DNA from: an uncultured Flavobacteriales bacterium
GTDB lineage: Bacteria; Bacteroidota; Bacteroidia; Palsa-965
Direction: 5' to 3'
NCBI GenBank assembly: GCA_903873905.1
Contig: CAIQQJ010000052.1
Location: forward strand, 1 to 34,414
DNA length: 34,414 nucleotides
Positions 8,449 to 32,055 of the stretch are shown here, piece by piece. The notes below the pieces were generated by a model that made no database searches, had not been told where the DNA came from, and worked only from the letters and a program-made list of their open reading frames with translations. The position numbers were made by a program, and so were the translations under genes. Numbering within the stretch: position 1 is the first letter of the stretch; each line of letters starts with the position of its first letter.

Positions 8449-11400
8449 ATGAAAAATAGTTTCCGCATTTGGTTGCTTGTGTTGTTTGTGATAACGGGTT
8501 TCACATTGAAAATCGGAGCACAGGTAATGCCGAAAAGTTTTGATGAAGATCCCGTGAAATTCATTGCTGAATTGCGCGATTTTTTTGAAAGTTATGAGGG
8601 TAAGGATGGAAAAGAATTCATTGACAAATTCAATGAGAAATATTGGATTACCAACCATGTGAGTCAGGATGTGAAAGATGCGATGTACAAGAATTGCAAT
8701 CAGATGGTGAAGAAAAAGTTTCGACCAAAACCGGAATATTATTCTTACCTCAATACAATCATGTCTATTGCCGATAAGAATGTTTCTGGTGTTACTTTTC
8801 TCGAATGGCAAACGTGTTTTACCACAATTGGAAATGGCAGATTGAATAAACCATTTTCCGATTTCATTGAAATGTCAGAACATCTTTTTGGTGAAAATAA
8901 ATTTTTCAAAACCGCTTCTGGTGAATGGTCTGTCATTGGAGGAACTTGGAAATTTTCCTGTGATAGTGTTTCTTCAGTGAGATTTACCAATGTCACACTT
9001 CACGGTGTTGCAAAAAATGACAGTACCAATATTTTTAATACAAGTGGATTGTATTTCCCTTCATCTGGCATGTGGGTAGGGCAGGGTGGACGTGTGTATT
9101 GGACGCGTGCGGGAATGAAAGAATCAGAAGTGTTTGCCGATTTGAGGAAATATTCTTTTTCTGTAAAAGGATTTTCAATTGTTGCTGACTCCGTTACGTT
9201 CACCAACCAAATTTATTTCAAGGATAAACCCTTGCAGGGAAAATTGTCCGAAAAATTAATTGCTGATGCGCAAATGGCTTCCGCTTCTTATCCGCGATTT
9301 GAATCGTATAGCAGTCGTTATCAAATCAAGTCCATGTATCCGAATGTGGATTATGAAGGTGGATTTACACAAGTGGGTGCGAAGTTCATTGGGTCGGGAA
9401 CAAAAGACAATCAGGCATTTTTTATTTTCAAACGAAATGGAAAAAATTTCCTGCAAGTTACTTCTCCAAGTTTTTCCATCACGAAAGATAAAATTACAAG
9501 TCAAAATGCTGCAGTGAAATTTTCACTTGATGCTGATTCAATTGTACATCCTTCCATCGAATTCAAATATTTCATTGATAGTTCTCGTGTTGTAATTTAT
9601 CGTCCTGAAGAAGGTGCATCACAAGCTCCATTTTATGATTCTTTCCACAAAGTGAATATGTATGTGGAACAGATGACTTGGAAAACAAATGAGCCAACAA
9701 TTATTCTGAACACCGTAATCGGTTCGGCATTGGGAACGGCATCCTTTCCGTCTTCTGATTATTACCGTCAATATTTGTATGACAGATTGCAAGGAATGGA
9801 TATGGTCCATCCATTAATCAAGCTTCGGAATTTTGTTCGTGATGCCAATGGAGGAATAAGAACATTCACGGCAATTGATTTGGCTCGTTACTGGAAAGTT
9901 GCAGTTGAACAACTTCGTCCGACAATTATGGATCTTTCCAATCAGGGTTTTTTGTATTTCGATCCGAAGACAGATATGATCACTTATCTCGACAAATGCG
10001 ATACCTACATTGCAGCACGTGCGGGTAAGAAAGATTATGATAACATTGAGTTCGATTCAAAGGTTGTTCCTGGAAGTGCGAATGCAAAAATTAATTTGTT
10101 GAATTACGACATGACGCTTTTTGGTGTGAATGAAGTTGCCTTGAGTGATTCTCAAAATGTAACCGTGTTTCCGAAAAGTGATATGATCATTTTAAAAAAG
10201 GATAGAAATTTCACTTTCGAAGGTTCCATTATGGCGGGACGTTTTGATTATTACGGAAAACTTTTTGCATTCGATTACAGCACATTTAAATTAAGTCTGA
10301 ACAATGTGGATTCTGTTCGAATTTGGATTGATACAGATCAACGTGACCCAAAAGATCCGAAAGGAAGTTTTGTTCAGATGAAAGTAAAAAGTGTAATTGA
10401 AAATTTGAATGGTGAATTGAAAATCGACGATCCTTCTAATAAATCAGGAACCCAAAGTAAAAAGTATCCGCAATATCCAATTTTCATTAGTGCAAAACCT
10501 TCCTTTGTATATTATGATAAACCTGGAATCCAAAAAGGTGTTTACAATCGCGATAAATTTTATTTCAAACTTGATCCGTTTACAATTGACAGTTTAGATA
10601 ATTTTCAAAATACAGCATTGCAATTTGGTGGAATATTTCAGTCATCAGGAATTTTTCCTGAAATACGAGATACGCTTCGACTCATGCCAGATAAGTCTTT
10701 AGGATTTGTTCGACAAGCGCCACCTGGTGGTTATTCTTTATATGGTGGAAAAGCAAAATTCACCAATGAAATGCGATTGAGCAATAAAGGTTTGCGTGGT
10801 GATGGACAGATAGACTACATAACTTCCACAAGCATTTCAAAGGATTTTATTTTCTATCCCGATTCCATGAATGGTGTTGCTCAAAGTTTTATTATTCGTG
10901 AACAACAGGTCAGTGGAAAAACCGAATATCCTCAGGTAACAGGCTCCACCATTTACATTCACTGGATGCCGAAAAGGGATTTCATGAATGCAACGAATAG
11001 AGATTCAGTTTTTACTGTTTTCAAAGGATTAGCAACAGCAAAAGGAACTTTGACACTTTCGCCAAAAAATCTTCTGGAAAATGGAATTCTACATTTTTTG
11101 GATGCTGATTTGGATTCGCGAAAAATGGTTTTGAAACATCATATTGCCGACGCCGATACTGCTGATTTCAGTTTGAAAGCGATTGCGGCGTCTGGCCTTG
11201 CATTCGCAACCAACAACGTAAATGCACACGTTGATTTCGAAAAACGAGAAGGCGATTTTAAAGCAAATGGAAAAGGTTCAATTGTGAAATTTCCAGTTAA
11301 TCAGTATATCTGTTACATGGAAAATTTCAAATGGTTTATGGATAAAAGTGCAATTGAATTAGGTGGAGCAGCAAAACCAAAACCAGGAATGGACAAACTA

Positions 11401-13008
11401 GATTTGGAAGGACCCGAATTTATTTCTGTTCATCCAAAACAGGATTCCTTGCGATTCCGTGCACCTAAAGCGAAATTTGATTATCGAAATTTCATCATTT
11501 ACGCTTTGGAAGTAAAAGAAATTAATGTGGCTGATGCGCAAATTGTTCCGGATAGCGGAAACATTACCATTCAGAAAAATGCTTTCATGGAAACATTGAC
11601 AAACGCAAAAATCAATGCGAATACGGTTACAAAATATCACCATTTGTTCAATTGTGTCGTTGATATTTATTCACGTCACAGTTATAGTGCTTCTGGCGAT
11701 TACGCTTATGTCGATGAATTGAAAAAAGAACAACTCATCCATTTTGCAAAGGTTGCACCAGATACTTCCTTTCAAACCTATGCTGAGGGAACAATTGCTG
11801 ATTCTTCTCGATTCTATTTGAGTCCCGCTTTTGATTTTCGGGGAACAGTCATTCTTGCTGCTACCAATCCATATCTTGTCTTTGACGGAGCAACTTCCTT
11901 GAATCATGATTGTGCGATCGGAAAAAGCAAACTTCATTTTAAAGGATTGATTAATCCAAGTGAAATTTACATTCCGGTAGAATCATCGCCTGTAAATGAT
12001 AAGGGCGAACCCATAACTTCCGGTTTGGTAAGCACCGTTTCCGCCGATTCCGTTCACATTTATGGATCATTCCTCTCTCCAAAATTGGGAAGAACAGATG
12101 TCAATGTGGTAACGGCAGATGGATTTTTGTTTTTCGATAAAGCTTCACGAGAATATCGGATTTCGAATAAGGAAAAATTGGTTGAACGTTCCCTTCCTGG
12201 AAATTTTGTGAGCTTGAGTACTAAGACCTGTACCGTTTATGGTGAAGGAAAAATGGCACTTGGGGCCAATCTTGGAAAAGTTTACATGAATCCGATCGGA
12301 AATGCGACCCACAATACGGTCAATCATTCCAGTTATTTTGATTTGGTAATTGGACTCGATTTCTTCATGAGCAGTAAGGCAATGGGTGTTTTGGTGGAAG
12401 ATATCAATGCCTCCACAAGTTTGGCTGGAACCGATCCTGGTCGCCAAACATTCCAACGTTCATTGAACGAAATGGTCGGAAAAGACAAGGCCGATAAGTT
12501 GGTTTCTCAGTTAACCTTATATGGTTCCTACAAAAAGTTTCCAGACGAGTTGAACTACACTTTCTTCTTCACAGATGTTAAAATGAACTGGAACCAGAAG
12601 ACTAAATCCTATATTTCTGATGGGAAAATAGGTTTAGGTAATGTTGGTAAAGAGCAGATTAACAAGTACATAACTGGCACAATCATGCTTGAAAGAAAGA
12701 GGAGTGGTGATGTTCTAACCATCTACTTTGAGCTGGATAACAGTAAATGGTATACCTTTAGTTATTCAAACGGGGTCATGCTTTGTTATTCGTCCAACGA
12801 AAAGTTCGTGACAATAATCAAGGAAATGAAAGATGATGACAAATCTGCTCCTGATGATTACAACAAAGAACGCCTAGGAGAAAACAAAGCCAGGTACAAA
12901 TTTACTGCTGGAAGTCCCAACGAAAGGAGTCTTATGCTGAAAAAGCTTAAGCGAGCTGGAGAAGGGGAAGATGGTGGTGATAGTCCTGATAATCCACAAG
13001 GAAATTAA
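8449..13008 (+). CDS. Very large exported protein of unknown function (1519 residues)
   Basis: I do not recognise a characterised family. The N-terminus is a signal peptide (about residues 1-24, ending KIGAQ). The rest is rich in Ser, Asp, Phe, Tyr and Lys and reads as many short alternating beta-strand segments, with recurring patterns such as YYGKLFAFDYSTFKLSLNN and LRGDGQIDYITS. The C-terminal 40 residues are charged and disordered-looking (ends GEGEDGGDSPDNPQ). No TPR, OmpA, TonB plug or T9SS sorting domain is visible. The layered beta-repeat look recalls AsmA/TamB or LptD-like periplasmic proteins, but that is only an impression. It sits ten bases after prmA, and its stop overlaps the plsY start (TAATG), so it is probably co-expressed with a phospholipid-synthesis enzyme. 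Confidence 0.8.
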   Translation: MKNSFRIWLLVLFVITGFTLKIGAQVMPKSFDEDPVKFIAELRDFFESYEGKDGKEFIDKFNEKYWITNHVSQDVKDAMYKNCNQMVKKKFRPKPEYYSYLNTIMSIADKNVSGVTFLEWQTCFTTIGNGRLNKPFSDFIEMSEHLFGENKFFKTASGEWSVIGGTWKFSCDSVSSVRFTNVTLHGVAKNDSTNIFNTSGLYFPSSGMWVGQGGRVYWTRAGMKESEVFADLRKYSFSVKGFSIVADSVTFTNQIYFKDKPLQGKLSEKLIADAQMASASYPRFESYSSRYQIKSMYPNVDYEGGFTQVGAKFIGSGTKDNQAFFIFKRNGKNFLQVTSPSFSITKDKITSQNAAVKFSLDADSIVHPSIEFKYFIDSSRVVIYRPEEGASQAPFYDSFHKVNMYVEQMTWKTNEPTIILNTVIGSALGTASFPSSDYYRQYLYDRLQGMDMVHPLIKLRNFVRDANGGIRTFTAIDLARYWKVAVEQLRPTIMDLSNQGFLYFDPKTDMITYLDKCDTYIAARAGKKDYDNIEFDSKVVPGSANAKINLLNYDMTLFGVNEVALSDSQNVTVFPKSDMIILKKDRNFTFEGSIMAGRFDYYGKLFAFDYSTFKLSLNNVDSVRIWIDTDQRDPKDPKGSFVQMKVKSVIENLNGELKIDDPSNKSGTQSKKYPQYPIFISAKPSFVYYDKPGIQKGVYNRDKFYFKLDPFTIDSLDNFQNTALQFGGIFQSSGIFPEIRDTLRLMPDKSLGFVRQAPPGGYSLYGGKAKFTNEMRLSNKGLRGDGQIDYITSTSISKDFIFYPDSMNGVAQSFIIREQQVSGKTEYPQVTGSTIYIHWMPKRDFMNATNRDSVFTVFKGLATAKGTLTLSPKNLLENGILHFLDADLDSRKMVLKHHIADADTADFSLKAIAASGLAFATNNVNAHVDFEKREGDFKANGKGSIVKFPVNQYICYMENFKWFMDKSAIELGGAAKPKPGMDKLDLEGPEFISVHPKQDSLRFRAPKAKFDYRNFIIYALEVKEINVADAQIVPDSGNITIQKNAFMETLTNAKINANTVTKYHHLFNCVVDIYSRHSYSASGDYAYVDELKKEQLIHFAKVAPDTSFQTYAEGTIADSSRFYLSPAFDFRGTVILAATNPYLVFDGATSLNHDCAIGKSKLHFKGLINPSEIYIPVESSPVNDKGEPITSGLVSTVSADSVHIYGSFLSPKLGRTDVNVVTADGFLFFDKASREYRISNKEKLVERSLPGNFVSLSTKTCTVYGEGKMALGANLGKVYMNPIGNATHNTVNHSSYFDLVIGLDFFMSSKAMGVLVEDINASTSLAGTDPGRQTFQRSLNEMVGKDKADKLVSQLTLYGSYKKFPDELNYTFFFTDVKMNWNQKTKSYISDGKIGLGNVGKEQINKYITGTIMLERKRSGDVLTIYFELDNSKWYTFSYSNGVMLCYSSNEKFVTIIKEMKDDDKSAPDDYNKERLGENKARYKFTAGSPNERSLMLKKLKRAGEGEDGGDSPDNPQGN

Positions 13009-13667
13009 TGACGACAAACGCTATTCTTGCCTTAATGATTGCCTATCTGATTGGATCAATTCCATCGGCTCTTTGGATTGGCAAATTATTTTACAAAATC
13101 GATATTCGAGAACATGGAAGTGGAAATTCCGGTGCTACGAATACATTTCGTGTGTTGGGTAAAAAGGCTGGTATACCAGTACTTCTTCTTGATGTTTTCA
13201 AAGGTTGGGCAGCAGTAATGATGGCCGTTTTTGTTACGGAAGCTCCACAACACTCACAGGATTTTGTCAATATTGAGATTGTCCTTGGAGTTGCTGCTGT
13301 TGTCGGACATATTTTCCCTTTATGGGCAACTTTCCGTGGAGGAAAAGGAATTGCAACTTTGTTTGGAGTTGTGCTTGCGGTGCATCCTTATGCTTGTCTC
13401 ATTTGTGCGGGTATATTTCTCTTGGTTTTCCTAGCAACGCATTACGTTTCCTTGGGCTCAATTTCGGCAGGAATTTCATTTCCAATCACTGTGATTTTCG
13501 TTTATGGGCGTGAAATTGTACCGTCAATGGTTGTCTTTTCTTGTCTTGTTGCCATTCTTATTCTCATCACACACCAGAAAAATATTGAGCGTTTACTTCG
13601 CCGTGAAGAATCGAAAATGTTCTTGGTGAAAAAGAAGAAAGAATCGAACGAAGAAGCTATTGGTTAG
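13008..13667 (+). CDS. plsY: Glycerol-3-phosphate acyltransferase PlsY
   Basis: A 219-residue integral inner-membrane enzyme that transfers an acyl group from acyl-phosphate to glycerol 3-phosphate, giving lysophosphatidic acid, the first step of phospholipid synthesis. All three PlsY motifs are present: GSIPSALWIGK near residue 17, GSGNSGATNTFRVLGKKAG near 37-55 followed by DVFKG, and GHIFPLWATFRGGKGIAT near 100-117. Several hydrophobic segments fit the multi-pass topology. The tail after about residue 195 is lysine- and glutamate-rich. The ATG shares its A with the stop codon of the 1519-residue gene, so translation is very likely coupled. Confidence 0.95.
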   Translation: MTTNAILALMIAYLIGSIPSALWIGKLFYKIDIREHGSGNSGATNTFRVLGKKAGIPVLLLDVFKGWAAVMMAVFVTEAPQHSQDFVNIEIVLGVAAVVGHIFPLWATFRGGKGIATLFGVVLAVHPYACLICAGIFLLVFLATHYVSLGSISAGISFPITVIFVYGREIVPSMVVFSCLVAILILITHQKNIERLLRREESKMFLVKKKKESNEEAIG

Positions 13668-13897: not shown

Positions 13898-15406
13898 ATG
13901 CGCATAAGGGAATTATTTTTGTTTATTATTATTGCTTCGGCGGTATTGTTCACGCCATGTCATTTGCGAGCCCAAACGCAGACTACAGATCAAATAATAA
14001 AAGATGCGAATACGAAGTTTGATGACGAAGATTATGCAGCGGCAATGCCTTTGTATTCTCAACTTCTTGCCAACGATAGAAATAATCCGAATTATAATTA
14101 TCGTTATGGCGTTTGTGTTTTGTATGCCAGTTCTGAAAAAGAAAAAGGTCTAGAATATCTTCAGAAAGCTTCGAAGAGTGCGGGTGTGGATGCTGATGTT
14201 TGGTTTTATTTGGGAAAAGCTTATCATTTGAATTACCAATTTGAACAAGCGATAACTTGCTACAATAAATTCAAGAGTTTAGGTGGTGCGAAAAAAGCAA
14301 CCAAATATCAAGTAGATAATCAAATTGCCATGTGCAAAACAGGAAGGAAATTGCTGAAGGCAATTACTGATATCACTGTTATTGAAAAGGCTGAATTAAA
14401 TGAAGCAGATTTTTTCCGTCATTATGATTTGAGTGGTTCTGGTTATAGCGGACAACTTTTGGTAAAACCAGATGAATTTAAAACAGCACTTGATAAAAAG
14501 AAAAAAGAGCAATCCATTATTTTTCTATCTGGTGAAAAGAACGAATTATTTTTTGCTTCCTATGGTGAAGATGAATCGCAAGGGAAAGATATTTATGTAG
14601 TTCGAAAACTGCCGAATGGTAATTGGGGAAAACCTGAGAATGTTGGTTATCCGATCAACACGGAGTTTGATGAAGATTATCCATTCATGCATCCAAATGG
14701 AAAAGTTTTGTATTTCTCATCCAAAGGTCATAACAGTATGGGTGGTTATGATATTTTTCGTTCTGAATTAAATGAGGAAACCAATACGTGGCAGAAACCC
14801 GTCAATTTGGATTTTGCGATCAATTCTCCTGATGATGATATCATGTTCGTTAGTGATCTTGATGAAAAAACGGCATGGTTTGCATCTTCCAGAAATAGTC
14901 CTGAAGGGAAAATGACTGTTTATCATGTTGTGATAGAACGCAAGCCGGTAAATAATTGTTTGATAACAGGAATATTTACTCCAATAAAGGGAGATCAGAA
15001 TCGTGCCGCGAAAATTACTGTGAAGAACTCTGAAACAAATGAGCCGATTGGAGTTTACAATAGTAATGAGGCAACGGGATCTTATTTTATCAATCTGCCT
15101 AACAATGGTGGAAAATATTCCTTCACAATAGATCATACTGGAATTGCAACGCAAACAAATGATGTAATTGTTCCGACTCAATATCAAATTAAAGCCCTGA
15201 ATCAGCAAATTGGGTATGAAGAAATTAATAAAGATTCGAAATTATTTATTCGGACAGATTATGCAACGGATACATCGATGCTTGATCCTTCATTCCTGAA
15301 AGACAAAGCCAAACTTGATATCAATAATGAACCAGTTGCCACGCAAATCACCGACATGGGGGCATTCTTCTGGAACGATTCCCAAAGCTGGAACTACAGA
15401 TTCTAG
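13898..15406 (+). CDS. TPR-PD40-regulatory-domain envelope protein, 5' part of a frameshifted giant gene (PorE-like)
   Basis: 502 residues from the ATG at 13898; an in-frame TTG at 13880 gives six more but sits in front of the signal peptide (RIRELFLFIIIASAVLF, cleavage near LRAQ). Residues about 33-150 are TPR-like helices (ANTKFDDEDYAAAMPLYSQL). Residues about 200-350 are a PD40-type propeller (DIYVVRKLPNGNWGKPENVG, HPNGKVLYFSSKGHNSMGGY). Residues about 350-440 form a carboxypeptidase-regulatory-like beta domain. This is the order seen in the T9SS protein PorE, but the C-terminal OmpA domain is missing. After MG at 15356-15361 the frame runs into nonsense and stops, while the next frame continues sensibly; see the G5 site. 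It most likely belongs with the downstream frame as one protein. Confidence 0.85.
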   Translation: MRIRELFLFIIIASAVLFTPCHLRAQTQTTDQIIKDANTKFDDEDYAAAMPLYSQLLANDRNNPNYNYRYGVCVLYASSEKEKGLEYLQKASKSAGVDADVWFYLGKAYHLNYQFEQAITCYNKFKSLGGAKKATKYQVDNQIAMCKTGRKLLKAITDITVIEKAELNEADFFRHYDLSGSGYSGQLLVKPDEFKTALDKKKKEQSIIFLSGEKNELFFASYGEDESQGKDIYVVRKLPNGNWGKPENVGYPINTEFDEDYPFMHPNGKVLYFSSKGHNSMGGYDIFRSELNEETNTWQKPVNLDFAINSPDDDIMFVSDLDEKTAWFASSRNSPEGKMTVYHVVIERKPVNNCLITGIFTPIKGDQNRAAKITVKNSETNEPIGVYNSNEATGSYFINLPNNGGKYSFTIDHTGIATQTNDVIVPTQYQIKALNQQIGYEEINKDSKLFIRTDYATDTSMLDPSFLKDKAKLDINNEPVATQITDMGAFFWNDSQSWNYRF

Positions 15407-18400
15407 CGATTCCAATGAGGATGACTCAACGACTACTGATAGCTCAACAGGAGTTCCTTCTTCTCATACAGGAGTAAGCAACGAAGAGTTGGTAAAGACT
15501 GCGAATGACGATGCCATTGCCACACAATCGGAAGCAACGGATCTTGATGCTCAAAAAGATCGTGCTTTTAATTATGCTTCTCAATTAAATGAGCAGGCAA
15601 AATCAAAAACACAGGAAGCAGCTCAAGCAAAAAATACGGCCGATGTATTACCTGAAGGTCCCGATAAAAAAGCGGCAGAACAAAAAGCGGCAGATTTAAT
15701 TGCAGCGGCAAATGCTTTGCAATCTCAAGTTGCGGCCTCTACTTCAATGGCACAGGCTTTAGAGGCAGATGCAAAAAACAAACAACAAGAAGCTGATAAG
15801 GCAAAGCAGTATGCAACGAGTTTAGATAAAGCTGTTAAGTCAAAAGATTCTAAAGCACTTGATGATGCACTCGCAAAACAACTTGAATTACAGGCCATGT
15901 CGGATACGCGACCTGAAAGTGAATCGACAGCGAAAAATTTACAAATAGAGGCTGATAAAAAAGATGCCGAATTAGAAAAGGCAAAAACTTCTTCTCAAGA
16001 TATGAAAGAAGAAATTGCCCAGAATCAACAGCGCATTGGACAATTAAAAGCAGAGGAAGCAAAAGAAAAAGATCCTGAATTAAAGAAAGGTATTGAAGCA
16101 CAGATTGAGGGAATCAATGAGGATATTGCCGATGACGAAAAACTCCTTGTTGCTGATCAGAAAAAAGTTGAACTCCTACAAAATCAATCCAACGATTTAA
16201 ATAATCAGGCGAAGGCTGCGAATGATGTCATTGTGCAATCGAAAAACCCTGCCGTTTCTTCCACTCCGATTTCAATTGAAAATAAAAATGCACTTAGTAA
16301 GGATGCAATAGCATATCAACAAACCTCCACTGAAATAGGAACTTCAAAAGTTTATGCTCCAGTAACGGGTACACAAACAGCAGGTGTTCAAACTACTGAC
16401 ACACAAACAACAGGAACACAAACAGCAGGTGTTCAGACAACTGACACACAAACAACAGGAACACAAACTTCGGTTACACAGACAACGGACACACAAATAC
16501 CTGGAAATGATTCTACGAATACTGTTGTTGCGGATGAAAATCCTGATTCAGCATATTCAGACGCGTTGCAAAAAGCGGATACAATTAGTGATCCAATTGC
16601 CCGTGAAAAAGCAAAGGGTGAAGTTTATTCCAATTGGGCTTCAAATATTGATGATCAAATAAATGAAAAGAAACAGGAGATCGCAGGAACAAAGGATAAA
16701 ACAAAGAAAGCGGAGTTGAATGCTGATCTTAAAAAATTGCAGGCTTCATCCGAACAGAAAAAACAGGATTCGAAAAACAGCGTTGCTGCAGCAAATAAAG
16801 CGGAGAAAGATAAAATTGCCCAGCAAGGAACGCAGCAAGTCGCTTTACCTGATGATCAATTTGTAAAACAAATTTCCGCTGCAGATCAGAATCCTTCGGT
16901 AGTGGAAAAGGAAAATAAAAAGGCGCAAGTTTATTCTGACTGGGCCGATGCACTCGATTCAACGGCTGTTGTGAAAGAAAACAACCTTACTAAGATCAAA
17001 AACAAGACGCAACAAGAAAAAGCAAAACAGGAAATAGCAGCAATTCGTGCTGATGCCGAATCGAAGCGAAATCTTTCTGATGAAGCCAAAACAAAAGCTA
17101 CGGAGGCAGAAACAGCTTCTCAAACCACAGGAACACAATCCAATCCTACGGAGGTTCATTATGATAGTCCCGAAGCAAATTCTGCATTACAGGAACAAAA
17201 ACAATTAGTTGATCAAGCAAACCAGAACAGGCAGAACAAGGATTCACTTTCTAATTTGGCTTCAACTAAAGAGGGTGATGAAAAGAACCAATTGTTGAAA
17301 GCGGCAACTGAACAGCAGCGACAAGCTTGGGAAAAAGATGCACAAGCCTCCGCTAAAATGGGTGATGCGAATAAACTTCAATTTGAAAAAAATAATAATC
17401 AATTGAATGGATTTGATGCAGCAGCTGTTAATAGCAATGATCCTTCCGTTTCAACAGCCTCGCTTCTTTCTGATGAATCGAAAAAACTATTTGAAAAGGC
17501 AAAGCAAGATCGTGCAACTGCTGTAGCTTCCGATAATAATTATATCAAGAATGAAGCACTGCAAAGTGCTGAAGAAAACGAGAAAAAAGCATTACAAAAA
17601 CAACAAGATGCAATTACACTTTATAAGAAGAGTGGAATTCAGCCTATTGCTGTTACACAAACAACAGATACAAAAACATCAGGTACACAAACAGCGGGAA
17701 CACAGACAGCCGGTACACAAACTACAGATACACAAACAGCAGGAACTCAAACTACAGATACACAAACAACAGGAACACATCCTACAGATACACAAACTAC
17801 AGGCACACAAACAGCAGGAACTCAAACTACAGATACACAAACTACAGGCGCACAAACTACAGGAACTCAAACCACGGATACACAGACAGCAGGCACACAA
17901 ACCACAGATACACAAACTACTGGCACGCAATCCACGAATACACAAACTACAGGAACACAAACTACAGGAACACAAACTACAGGAACACAAACTACAGGAA
18001 CACAAACTACAGGTACACAAACTACAGGAACACAAACTACAGGAACACAAACCACGGATACGCAGACTACAGGAACGCAATCCACGAATACACAAACTAC
18101 AGGAACACAAACCACAAATACTGCCATGCAGGAAATTGTTGATCCTACAAGTGGTCAACCTTTCACTTCTAATCAGTTAAATCAAATTAGATCAAGTGAT
18201 CCTTTCAAGAATTATACTGCTGCAAATCTTGACGCAGTTAATTCTGAAAATAATTCTGCTAATCTAAAACTACAAGCTGATAGTTTTCAATTAAGTGCTA
18301 ATTCAAATGTCGCGAAAGCTCAAGATATTGCTTTACAAGCTGCAGATGAAAAAGATCAAACGAAGAAGAAAGAATTGATTGCGGAATCAAAAAAATACAA

Positions 18401-20240
18401 TTCCATGGCGAAAAATGACATGGGTTCCCGTGATTCCTTAGAAGAATTGGTTGATGTTGAATTGATGAATGCAAATGCAAATCATAACAAAGCGAATTTG
18501 GCATTACAAGGACTTGACCAACCAGCAATTAACAATATTAAAATTGTTGCAAAAGCAGATCAAACGAATTCGGGAGATGTTGCACGTACAGGAACACAAA
18601 CAGCGGACACGCAAACTACAGGATCTCAAACAGCAGGAACGCAAACCACGGACACTCAAACTACAGGTACGCAAACTACAGGAACTCAAACAGCGGACAC
18701 GCAAACTACAGGTGCGCAAACAGCGGGTGCACAAACTTCAGGAACACAAACAGCAGACACACAAACTACAGGTGCGCAAACTACCGGAACTCAAACAGCA
18801 GACACACAAACTACAGGTGCGCAAACTACCGGAACTCAAACAGCAGACACACAAACTACAGGAACACAAACCAAAGCTCACAATACGAATACTTCTTCTG
18901 TTTCTAGTCGGCTTTCTCCTGGTGAACAATTTGCTATTGTCCCTAAAACAAGTTCAACACCTATTACCGTCATAAAAATAAATCCTTCATTGCCAGAAGG
19001 GCTGGTTTACAAAGTGCAAATTGGAGCTTTCAGAAATCCAATCTCTTCTGAAATTTACAAAGGCATTGCTCCTGTATGTGCAGAAACAACTGCTTCCGGA
19101 TTGACTCGTTATACAGCAGGACTCTTTAAGGAATTTGCAAATGCTGATGCTGCTAAAGTTGAAATTCGCGGAATGGGATATCCTGATGCATTTGTTGTTG
19201 CTTTCTATAACGGAAAAAGAATATCAATTGATGAAGCAAGACGTTTAAAGGGAGACTCCGGAATGCACCCAATTACAGAGACGCATCCTGAAAATGGAAC
19301 GCAAACAAGTGATACCCAAACAACGGGAACTCAAACAACGGACGCGCAAACCACAAACAATCCTGATAAAGGAAATCAATCCTATCAAGGAAATACAACT
19401 GGGCAGGATGTGAAACAAGTAAAAGGATTATTCTTCACTGTACAAATCGGAGTGTATAAGAATCAAGTTAGCAATTCAAAATTGAAGAATCTACCAGAAA
19501 TTGTAAATGAAAAAACAGCAAATGGATTCATTAGATATTCTTCTGGAAAATATTGCAGTGTTGATGCAGCTGTTGTGGCAAAAGACAAGGCAGTTTCAAA
19601 AGGAATAACTGACGCATTTGTTACGGCTTATTATAATGGAAAGCGAATAACCCCTGCTGAAGCTCAATCCTTAATTGAAACAGGTGTTTCACCTTGTGCT
19701 GATGGGCAAAAACAAACTTCAAACAACAGCAGCCAAACAAGCAATAGTCAAACTAGTGGTAGTCAAGGAACACAACCTTCGAATAATGGCAGTCAAACTA
19801 GCAGTAGTCAAAGAACACAACCTTCGAATAATGGCAGTCCAGCTAGTAGTCAAGGAACACAGCCATCGAATAGTGGCAGTCAAACTAGCAATAACGGTGA
19901 GCAGGGTACGCAAAACTCTTCTACCTCAACCTTAAGTACAAAAGCTCCTGTGCCTGAAACAGGTTTGGTATTTAGTGTACAAATCGGTGCTTTCCGTGAG
20001 GAAGTTCCTGTTGAAATTGCAAATCAATTCCTGCAACTTTCGAGCAAGGGCGTGAAAAATTATCTTGATGGAGGAACTGGACTTACTGTATATCAGGTTG
20101 GTGTTTGTGTTACCAAGGAAGAAGCGGAGGCATTGCGAGCTGAAGCAGTTGCAAAAGGAATTACGGATGCATTCATAGTTGCGTTTAAGGATGGTAAGAA
20201 AATTACCATGGAAGAAGCCATGCAGTTGTTGGGACAATAA
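15315..20240 (+). CDS. Giant helical/TQTTG-repeat protein with three SPOR domains, 3' part of the frameshifted gene
   Basis: The open frame has 1641 codons from the first Met at 15315, but the true start is doubtful: the first residues are not sensible and there is no signal peptide. Reading from GHSSGTIPKAG at 15360 as a continuation of the upstream frame gives one protein of about 2,113 residues. Alanine/lysine/glutamine-rich, coiled-coil-like segments lie at about 15480-16240, 16540-17130, 17160-17640 and 18130-18570. TQTTG-type pentapeptide arrays lie between them. Three Bacteroidota-type SPOR domains close the protein (about 18999-19260, 19425-19680 and 19962-20237), each with VQIGAF or VQIGVY at the start and DAF(V/I)V or DAFVT plus GK(R/K)I near the end. 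SPOR domains bind denuded peptidoglycan, so the protein must be exported; the upstream frame supplies the signal. Confidence 0.82.
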   Translation: MISIMNQLPRKSPTWGHSSGTIPKAGTTDSSDSNEDDSTTTDSSTGVPSSHTGVSNEELVKTANDDAIATQSEATDLDAQKDRAFNYASQLNEQAKSKTQEAAQAKNTADVLPEGPDKKAAEQKAADLIAAANALQSQVAASTSMAQALEADAKNKQQEADKAKQYATSLDKAVKSKDSKALDDALAKQLELQAMSDTRPESESTAKNLQIEADKKDAELEKAKTSSQDMKEEIAQNQQRIGQLKAEEAKEKDPELKKGIEAQIEGINEDIADDEKLLVADQKKVELLQNQSNDLNNQAKAANDVIVQSKNPAVSSTPISIENKNALSKDAIAYQQTSTEIGTSKVYAPVTGTQTAGVQTTDTQTTGTQTAGVQTTDTQTTGTQTSVTQTTDTQIPGNDSTNTVVADENPDSAYSDALQKADTISDPIAREKAKGEVYSNWASNIDDQINEKKQEIAGTKDKTKKAELNADLKKLQASSEQKKQDSKNSVAAANKAEKDKIAQQGTQQVALPDDQFVKQISAADQNPSVVEKENKKAQVYSDWADALDSTAVVKENNLTKIKNKTQQEKAKQEIAAIRADAESKRNLSDEAKTKATEAETASQTTGTQSNPTEVHYDSPEANSALQEQKQLVDQANQNRQNKDSLSNLASTKEGDEKNQLLKAATEQQRQAWEKDAQASAKMGDANKLQFEKNNNQLNGFDAAAVNSNDPSVSTASLLSDESKKLFEKAKQDRATAVASDNNYIKNEALQSAEENEKKALQKQQDAITLYKKSGIQPIAVTQTTDTKTSGTQTAGTQTAGTQTTDTQTAGTQTTDTQTTGTHPTDTQTTGTQTAGTQTTDTQTTGAQTTGTQTTDTQTAGTQTTDTQTTGTQSTNTQTTGTQTTGTQTTGTQTTGTQTTGTQTTGTQTTGTQTTDTQTTGTQSTNTQTTGTQTTNTAMQEIVDPTSGQPFTSNQLNQIRSSDPFKNYTAANLDAVNSENNSANLKLQADSFQLSANSNVAKAQDIALQAADEKDQTKKKELIAESKKYNSMAKNDMGSRDSLEELVDVELMNANANHNKANLALQGLDQPAINNIKIVAKADQTNSGDVARTGTQTADTQTTGSQTAGTQTTDTQTTGTQTTGTQTADTQTTGAQTAGAQTSGTQTADTQTTGAQTTGTQTADTQTTGAQTTGTQTADTQTTGTQTKAHNTNTSSVSSRLSPGEQFAIVPKTSSTPITVIKINPSLPEGLVYKVQIGAFRNPISSEIYKGIAPVCAETTASGLTRYTAGLFKEFANADAAKVEIRGMGYPDAFVVAFYNGKRISIDEARRLKGDSGMHPITETHPENGTQTSDTQTTGTQTTDAQTTNNPDKGNQSYQGNTTGQDVKQVKGLFFTVQIGVYKNQVSNSKLKNLPEIVNEKTANGFIRYSSGKYCSVDAAVVAKDKAVSKGITDAFVTAYYNGKRITPAEAQSLIETGVSPCADGQKQTSNNSSQTSNSQTSGSQGTQPSNNGSQTSSSQRTQPSNNGSPASSQGTQPSNSGSQTSNNGEQGTQNSSTSTLSTKAPVPETGLVFSVQIGAFREEVPVEIANQFLQLSSKGVKNYLDGGTGLTVYQVGVCVTKEEAEALRAEAVAKGITDAFIVAFKDGKKITMEEAMQLLGQ
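15358..15362 (+). other. G5 run: site of the apparent +1 frameshift
   Basis: Five G residues follow CAT. The upstream frame reads ATG-GGG-GCA and then loses sense. With four G it reads ATG-GGG-CAT-TCT and flows into the downstream frame (MG then HSSGTIPKAG). One extra base, real or a sequencing or assembly error, explains both the 92-base overlap of the two frames and the missing signal peptide of the second. Confidence 0.75.
16371..16505 (+). repeat. TQTTG-type array 1 (9 units of 15 bases)
   Basis: Nine in-frame 15-base units encode pentapeptides such as TQTAG, VQTTD and TQTTG. The array lies between the first and second helical segments of the giant protein. Confidence 0.9.
17655..18119 (+). 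repeat. TQTTG-type array 2 (31 units of 15 bases)
   Basis: Thirty-one consecutive 15-base units encode TQTTG, TQTTD, TQTAG, TQSTN and close variants. Seven consecutive units at 17940-18044 all encode TQTTG and are almost identical in DNA (ACACAAACTACAGGA, one with a final T). The purity of this core suggests recent slippage expansion. Other-frame and antisense open frames across it (HKLQE or CSLCS repeats) are artefacts. Confidence 0.93.
18594..18863 (+). repeat. TQTTG-type array 3 (18 units of 15 bases)
   Basis: Eighteen units, with a degenerate nineteenth (TQTKA), encode TQTAD, TQTTG and AQTTG. The last part alternates TQTAD-TQTTG-AQTTG, a 45-base higher-order repeat. It separates the fourth helical segment from the first SPOR domain. 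Confidence 0.9.
19299..19358 (+). repeat. TQTTG-type array 4 (4 units) between SPOR 1 and SPOR 2
   Basis: Four units encode TQTSD, TQTTG, TQTTD and AQTTN, linking the first and second SPOR domains. A related but more degenerate Ser/Asn/Gln-rich linker (TQPSNNGSQTSS pattern) at about 19720-19920 links SPOR 2 and SPOR 3. Confidence 0.8.
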
Positions 20241-29786: not shown

Positions 29787-30686
29787 ATGAAAAACTTGAA
29801 ATTTATAATTCTTGCAATTTCATGCTTGGTTTTTGTAAATGAAGCAAGCAGTAAATTATTTGAGAGAAAAGATATCCTCGAAATGAAAGGTATTGTTAAG
29901 CAAACAGGCAGCAGTGATTATTCCAGTGAATATGTTCTTGACAGCGCCTTGGTTACTATTTATAACGAAACCAGTATAACCACAACAGTTTTATTTTCTG
30001 ATGATAAAGGAAGGTGCAATTTGATATTGCCATTTGATAATAAATATACCGTCAGCGTTTCTAAAAATGGTTTCGTCACAAAAATCATATACATTGATAC
30101 AAGGGTTTCTAGAAAGACAAAGCAACATTTTGTTTTTCCATTTGACATTGATTTGTTTCAAAAAATTGAAGATGTTGATATTAGCAATTTGTTAAAAGAG
30201 CCAATTGCTTTTGTAAACTTCAATATTATAAAAAAGGATTTTGCCTATAACTATAATTATACAGATAGGATTAATGCACAGATACGAAAATTGTATACGG
30301 AATATTATCTTTCTTATAGTCCCATTAACTATTTGAAATCGGATTCAACGACTGCAATTACTGATCAAATACCTCCTGAAATAATTTCCGATCAAACGGT
30401 TATCGGTACAATTGACGCAAATGTCATTTATAAAATCCAGGTTATCGCAGTGATGTCGGGCCCATTACCTGAAAACCATCCTGTTTTTTCCAAATGCGGT
30501 GTGGTTGAGGTCTATTATAATGATGGGTTTTTCAAATACACTACGGGTGAATTTGGAGACTTTGCTACAGCTGAAAAAAGACTTATGGAATTAAGAGAGA
30601 TTGGTTTTTATGATGCGTTCATTGTCATTTCAAAAAATGAAATACAAGTACCTTATGAAGAAATTAATTTGTCACCAGCTCAATGA
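29787..30686 (+). CDS. Exported protein with regulatory-like beta domain and C-terminal SPOR domain (paralogue A)
   Basis: 299 residues. Residues 1-22 are a signal peptide (ends EASS). Residues about 30-110 form a carboxypeptidase-regulatory-like beta sandwich (MKGIVKQTGSS, LDSALVTIYNET, DDKGRCNLILPF, YTVSVSKNGFVTKIIYIDT). A middle region without a known domain follows (about 115-205). Residues about 212-285 are SPOR-like: VIYKIQVIAV, YYNDGFFKYTTGEFGDFATA, GFYDAFIVIS. The same SPOR subtype occurs three times in the giant protein. It probably binds denuded peptidoglycan in the periplasm. The next gene but one gap is its paralogue, with the same layout and length. Calling the SPOR domain rests on pattern reading, not a search. 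Confidence 0.75.
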   Translation: MKNLKFIILAISCLVFVNEASSKLFERKDILEMKGIVKQTGSSDYSSEYVLDSALVTIYNETSITTTVLFSDDKGRCNLILPFDNKYTVSVSKNGFVTKIIYIDTRVSRKTKQHFVFPFDIDLFQKIEDVDISNLLKEPIAFVNFNIIKKDFAYNYNYTDRINAQIRKLYTEYYLSYSPINYLKSDSTTAITDQIPPEIISDQTVIGTIDANVIYKIQVIAVMSGPLPENHPVFSKCGVVEVYYNDGFFKYTTGEFGDFATAEKRLMELREIGFYDAFIVISKNEIQVPYEEINLSPAQ

Positions 30687-31152: not shown

Positions 31153-32055
31153 ATGAAAACCTTGAAATTTTTAATTCTGATGGTTTCATGCTTGGCTTTT
31201 GAAACTGGAGCAAGCAGTAAGATTTCAGAAAGACAACATTGCCTCATAATGCAGGGTGTTGTGAAACAAGCAGGCAACGATGAATATTCCAGTGAATATA
31301 TTCTCGATAGTGCTGTGATTAGAGTTTTCAATGAAACAATGAAAACTAATGAAATTTTGTATTCGGATGAGTTTGGTAAATGCAATATTAATCTCCCCTT
31401 TAATAATCAGTTTTCTGTCAGCATATCAAAGATGGGATACCTGACAAAAATTATTAGCATTGACACAAGAGTTTTGGGAAACAAAACGAAACACTTTGAT
31501 TTCCCATTTCTTATTGATTTGTTTGAGAAGAAAGAAGCGTTGGATTTTTCCTATTTACTGAATGAACCTATAGCACTTGTGAATTTCAATTATGAAAAAA
31601 AGGAGTTCGTTTATCAATTTAATAATTCAGATAAAGTAAATGCTCAAATCAGGGACATTTCAAATGAATATTACAATTCACTCAATCAAATTGGCTTTTT
31701 GAGTTATGATTCAGCTTTGGAAATAACGGATCAAGTGCCTCCAGAAATTTTAACAGTTCAGCCGGTTATCCCAACAATTACAAATACAAACGTTGTTTAT
31801 AAAGTTCAAATTGTTGCTGTCGTCTTTGGCCCATTACCTGATAACAATTCTGTTTTTTTAAAATGTGGTAAAGCAGATGAAAGTTACTCTGATGGTTTAT
31901 ATAAGTATACTATTGGTGAGTTTCATGATTCTGTAACTGCTGAGCAAAAATTATTGGAAATGCAGAACAAAGGATATAGTGATGCCTTTATTGTCACCTT
32001 TAAAGACGGCAAGGAAATTCCAATTGTGAAAACGGAGCAAATTTTGGAACACTAA
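31153..32055 (+). CDS. Exported protein with regulatory-like beta domain and C-terminal SPOR domain (paralogue B)
   Basis: 300 residues, clearly homologous to paralogue A over its whole length: the same signal peptide pattern (MKTLKFLILMVSCLAF), GVVKQAGNDEYSSEYILDSA, VSISKMGYLTKIISIDTRV, DQVPPEIL, and a SPOR-like end (VVYKVQIVAVVFGPLPDN, DGLYKYTIGEF, GYSDAFIVTFKDGKEI). Its SPOR domain is closer to the giant protein's SPOR domains than paralogue A's, because it keeps the FKDGK-x-I ending. Middle and linker residues have diverged strongly, so the duplication is not recent. It is separated from the phosphatase gene by 59 bases, so the two may be co-transcribed. Confidence 0.77.
   Translation: MKTLKFLILMVSCLAFETGASSKISERQHCLIMQGVVKQAGNDEYSSEYILDSAVIRVFNETMKTNEILYSDEFGKCNINLPFNNQFSVSISKMGYLTKIISIDTRVLGNKTKHFDFPFLIDLFEKKEALDFSYLLNEPIALVNFNYEKKEFVYQFNNSDKVNAQIRDISNEYYNSLNQIGFLSYDSALEITDQVPPEILTVQPVIPTITNTNVVYKVQIVAVVFGPLPDNNSVFLKCGKADESYSDGLYKYTIGEFHDSVTAEQKLLEMQNKGYSDAFIVTFKDGKEIPIVKTEQILEH

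Follow-up and report, generated by a model that had tools for sequence, protein, structure and literature searches.

A widespread Bacteroidia gene encoding a predicted TPR, PD40 and SPOR protein is very probably interrupted by a single frame change in one draft genome

The 34,414-nucleotide stretch analysed here (the window) is contig C52 of the 3.93 Mb draft genome G000, which consists of 181 contigs, and it carries two long open reading frames that overlap on the same strand. This raises the question of whether they represent two neighbouring genes, one gene read through a programmed shift, or one gene broken by a single base. The upstream frame runs on the plus strand from an ATG at 13898 to a TAG at 15404-15406, as seen in the ORF list and the sequence, and its product ends in about 14 out-of-frame residues before that stop. 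The downstream frame, also on the plus strand, comprises 1,641 open codons from 15315 to 20240; it is closed on its 5' side by a stop at 15297, and its candidate starts are TTG 15315 and next ATG 15327. The two frames are +1 out of register. A preliminary description had read them as one gene of about 2,113 codons split by one base in a run of five Gs; the 92-base overlap and the stop at 15406 on which it relied are both present in the sequence, and its codon total is arithmetically correct. The features of the locus are:

13008..13667, plus strand: plsY, a conserved upstream neighbour by which the locus is recognised (Pfam G3P_acyltransf, 1.1e-58)
13898..15406, plus strand: 5' part of the gene, with a putative signal peptide (by eye), TPR region, PD40 beta-propeller and CRD-like beta domain (ORF; Pfam; partial NCBIfam matches; 60-70% identity to congeners)
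15315..20240, plus strand: 3' part of what is very probably the same ancestral gene, with a coiled-coil/low-complexity region, three SPOR repeats and no signal peptide (ORF; Pfam SPOR, 6.9e-7; tblastn, collinear with the later portion of single orthologous ORFs)
15326..15406, plus strand: frame-change interval, a variable linker joining the CRD-like domain to the coiled coil (ends of orthologue matches; codon usage)
15358..15362, plus strand: G5 run, where the length change most likely occurred (sequence; codon usage)
16364..18871, plus strand: in-frame repeat tracts of the TQTTDTQTTG type within the 3' part, at about 16364-16497, 17654-18121 and 18587-18871 (sequence)
18987..19247, plus strand: SPOR repeat 1 (Pfam SPOR, 5.4e-6)
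19419..19673, plus strand: SPOR-like repeat 2 (no Pfam match; recognised by alignment with the corresponding second repeat in six relatives)
19953..20237, plus strand: SPOR repeat 3 (Pfam SPOR, 2.5e-5)

Comparison with related genomes by tblastn showed both halves aligning collinearly, across the joint and in adjacent frames, with single ORFs of congeners, indicating that the overlap of the two frames is not due to chance. The ORF of G003 matches at 67% over 488 aa and then at 41% over 745 aa, separated by a gap of 35 residues in the query. A clear best orthologue of the upstream half was identified in all six congeners and in every genome of the same family that was searched, each time as a long frame without internal stops, and the single ORFs from the same genus and family measure 2243 (G002), 2007 (G003), 2223 (G006), 2093 (G001), 2238 (G011) and 2086 aa (G008). 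Within the class, 130 of 295 sampled genomes carry the gene at E <= 1e-80, and the open frames of these orthologues range from 538 to 2606 aa, usually 1,700-2,600 codons, again without internal stops. Of the 130, G000 alone has a short frame (509 codons) whose end lies inside its contig. The shortest copies elsewhere (538-896 aa) proved on tracing to run to contig ends, the position of a further short copy, in G078, being assigned to a contig end by coordinates alone. Moreover, the protein of the congeneric locus L032 (Bacteroidia MAG.246) matches both halves, and this locus is syntenic with the window over the upstream neighbours including plsY, which also precedes the orthologue in five further genomes from other families. 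The comparison of the same locus in relatives proposed in the preliminary description thus returned one continuous ORF, whereas the arrangement that it named as contrary evidence, two separate orthologous genes of which the second has its own export signal, was absent in about 130 genomes. Judged from these alignments, the window very probably holds one conserved Bacteroidia gene with a single +1 frame change, broken only in this assembly among the relatives examined; the frame break is an ordinary one, specific to one genome.

The domain content of the two halves largely follows the preliminary description. TPR, PD40 and a beta domain had been placed upstream, and Pfam identified PD40 (7.8e-7), TPR and a weak CarboxypepD_reg (CRD-like) match there. 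The predicted model of the 5' part is weak (pLDDT 64.5), with helices at 30-128 and then strands as far as about residue 455, and its matches in the PDB are essentially to TPR only. In the 3' part SPOR was the sole domain found by Pfam, and its score of 30.0 bits (6.9e-7) lies above the gathering cut-off of 21, which places this half in the SPOR family (PF05036). Of the three SPOR domains that had been described, repeats 1 and 3 pass Pfam on their own, and the middle one is recognised only through alignment with orthologues. Between the same conserved blocks, the window gene and its orthologues (loci L037, L039, L042 and L043) have species-specific low-complexity tracts, TQTTDTQTTG in the window, NQNVDQHVTDNQNQ in G003, SNTNNSNT in G002 and HETVTSGTPPVDH in G011, so that the spacers turn over fast while the domains stay. 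Elsewhere in the window, two tandem paralogues (29787-30686 and 31153-32055) have a weak SPOR-like match below threshold at their end, and the first of them also a weak CarboxypepD_reg match. A 1519-aa protein encoded at 8449-13008, without a significant Pfam match, is syntenic and 68% identical in a congener.

The position of the frame change can be narrowed from two sides. The matches to congeneric ORFs quit frame 2 at 15325-15361 and restart in frame 3 at 15453-15474 (tblastn), and a model of codon usage derived from 261 long G000 ORFs placed the best switch at 15356-15372, with roughly 15330-15390 allowed within about 5 log units. The G5 at 15358-15362 is the sole run of at least four identical bases within 15291-15406, and G/C runs of exactly five are scarce in the genome, whose GC content is 38%, with 63 counted in 0.61 Mb. 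The linker itself is fast-evolving, conserved in neither sequence nor length and not alignable between species, and the base of the event is therefore not identifiable from relatives. Hence, of the one-base break in the G5 run originally proposed, the frame break is borne out by homology; the run is plausibly its site, although neither codon usage nor the variable linker fixes the exact base.

Could the shift be programmed? On this reading, the G run would induce a +1 frameshift or slippage during transcription, giving both a short secreted product and one of full length, and a P-site glycyl-tRNA on GGG could indeed re-pair after a +1 step within GGGGG, into a downstream half that remains open and constrained. 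However, every relative carries the gene in one frame, leaving nothing to programme, and the linkers of 19 out of 20 relatives lack a C or G run of at least four, the twentieth having two C5 runs; a G run of at least four occurs in none of the 20. The next codon in frame after the run is GCA, which is not a stop and not evidently a rare codon, a five-base run is short for slippage, and no stimulatory RNA fold was detected downstream of the run (z = -1.08, with 28 of 200 shuffles folding as well). Lacking a conserved frame change, slippery site or stimulatory structure, the locus does not group with programmed frameshift genes, and we regard this explanation as very unlikely; a recoding site peculiar to this lineage, producing a secreted short form together with a full-length form bound to peptidoglycan, seems slightly less likely again. 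It is still harder to believe in two genuine neighbours, an exported PD40 protein followed by a separate SPOR protein. The assembly does show two long frames, with TTG 15315 or ATG 15327 as possible starts of the second, but orthologous ORFs span both halves, all relatives examined (about 130 genomes) lack such an arrangement, and the second frame, despite the periplasmic function of SPOR domains, would begin with no signal peptide. An older pseudogene, the gene having been lost long ago in this lineage, is equally hard to credit. It would account for the frame break, but no second lesion is present in 4.9 kb, and relative rates are normal both at the beginning of the coiled coil and in the SPOR repeats. 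The identity of these regions to relatives equals that among intact relatives, and the terminal-branch ratio of SPOR to N-module computed from trees is 1.5 for the window, within the span of 1.2-2.0 of its closest intact relatives (G003 1.5, G002 1.2, G006 2.0), so the downstream half is not decaying, which argues against an old lesion.

Taken together, the absence of any two-gene relative, of G/C runs in 19 of 20 linkers and of an RNA fold, along with a 3' half that evolves no faster than in intact relatives, disfavours programming and suggests from sequence comparison that the break either arose very recently or is an artefact. From the assembly sequence and its relatives, our estimates give a consensus or assembly error in G000 about an even chance, and a genuine lesion that this strain acquired very recently a substantial one that falls somewhat short of even. 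This agrees with the initial ranking of an insertion error or a real lesion above a programmed shift, which fits the evidence from relatives. In 138.6 kb of G000 covered by homologues from G003 no other frameshift was found, nor was any found in the reverse comparison over 137.4 kb. A generally indel-rich assembly was rejected, since no second frameshift appeared by homology in about 139 kb, and the clean state of the compared remainder somewhat lowers the prior for error. Nevertheless, a sample of this size is compatible with a low rate of errors, reaching at most about two per 100 kb, so that a lone consensus error somewhere in 3.9 Mb would be quite possible. When frame switches were sought by codon usage, 0.61 Mb of G000 returned 13 candidates and 1.59 Mb of G003 returned 49, with no excess in the former, the scan being unspecific because natural gene overlaps dominate it. 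The strongest other candidate in G000, on contig C9, was rejected as a frameshift and comprises two adjacent glycosyltransferase genes. No paper on frameshift rates in MAGs was found in the literature.

Three SPOR repeats on a PD40/TPR protein differ from FtsN or DamX. In the libraries searched we found no name for the intact family, and in the literature no paper on PD40-SPOR proteins. The best named families are both far under their cut-offs: NCBIfam NF053607 (CHU_0125_OmpA) matches the PD40 region in part (E 6.2e-34, 117.5 bits against a cut-off of 620), and NF052230 (T9SS_PorE) matches positions 286-456 (E 3.7e-26), its 91.6 bits (87.3 in the genome search) against a cut-off of 600 leaving the protein outside T9SS PorE. 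Like the CHU_0125 family OmpA-like protein, the window protein has a PD40 region, but the OmpA end is missing. PorE consists of TPR, propeller, CRD and OmpA_C and has been proposed to connect the secretion system with peptidoglycan (PMC7192894). From its predicted domains the window protein resembles PorE (PG1058 of the P. gingivalis T9SS) in plan and is PorE-like in its N-terminal half, sharing the order TPR, beta-propeller and CRD ahead of a C-terminal end that is here predicted to bind peptidoglycan. In contrast to PorE, it has no OmpA domain and, by eye, no clear lipobox, and carries instead more than 1,000 residues of coiled-coil/low-complexity sequence together with three SPOR repeats. 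C-terminal SPOR repeats above the Pfam cut-off are shared with the peptidoglycan-binding proteins of PF05036, and SPOR domains of other bacteria bind denuded glycan strands (PMC6895207). Elsewhere in G000, two tandem PorE-like ORFs at C24:17290-21638 (L182 and L183) score 528 and 499 bits against the cut-off of 600, and by these scores they are likelier than the window gene to represent the T9SS PorE of this genome.

The intact protein would be an exported envelope protein in which TPR, a PD40 propeller and a CRD-like domain are followed by a long coiled coil and three C-terminal SPOR repeats, and it would tie an outer-membrane or periplasmic assembly to peptidoglycan through SPOR instead of OmpA domains, probably in the manner thought for PorE. 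For annotation, the two halves are best treated as one disrupted gene and not a small PD40 protein next to an unexported SPOR protein. If the lesion is real, only a secreted TPR-PD40-CRD stub of 502 residues would be made, without the peptidoglycan-binding end. The intact family, in turn, is widespread in the class, sits behind plsY wherever checked, and is a reasonable candidate for a tether between the outer membrane and peptidoglycan.
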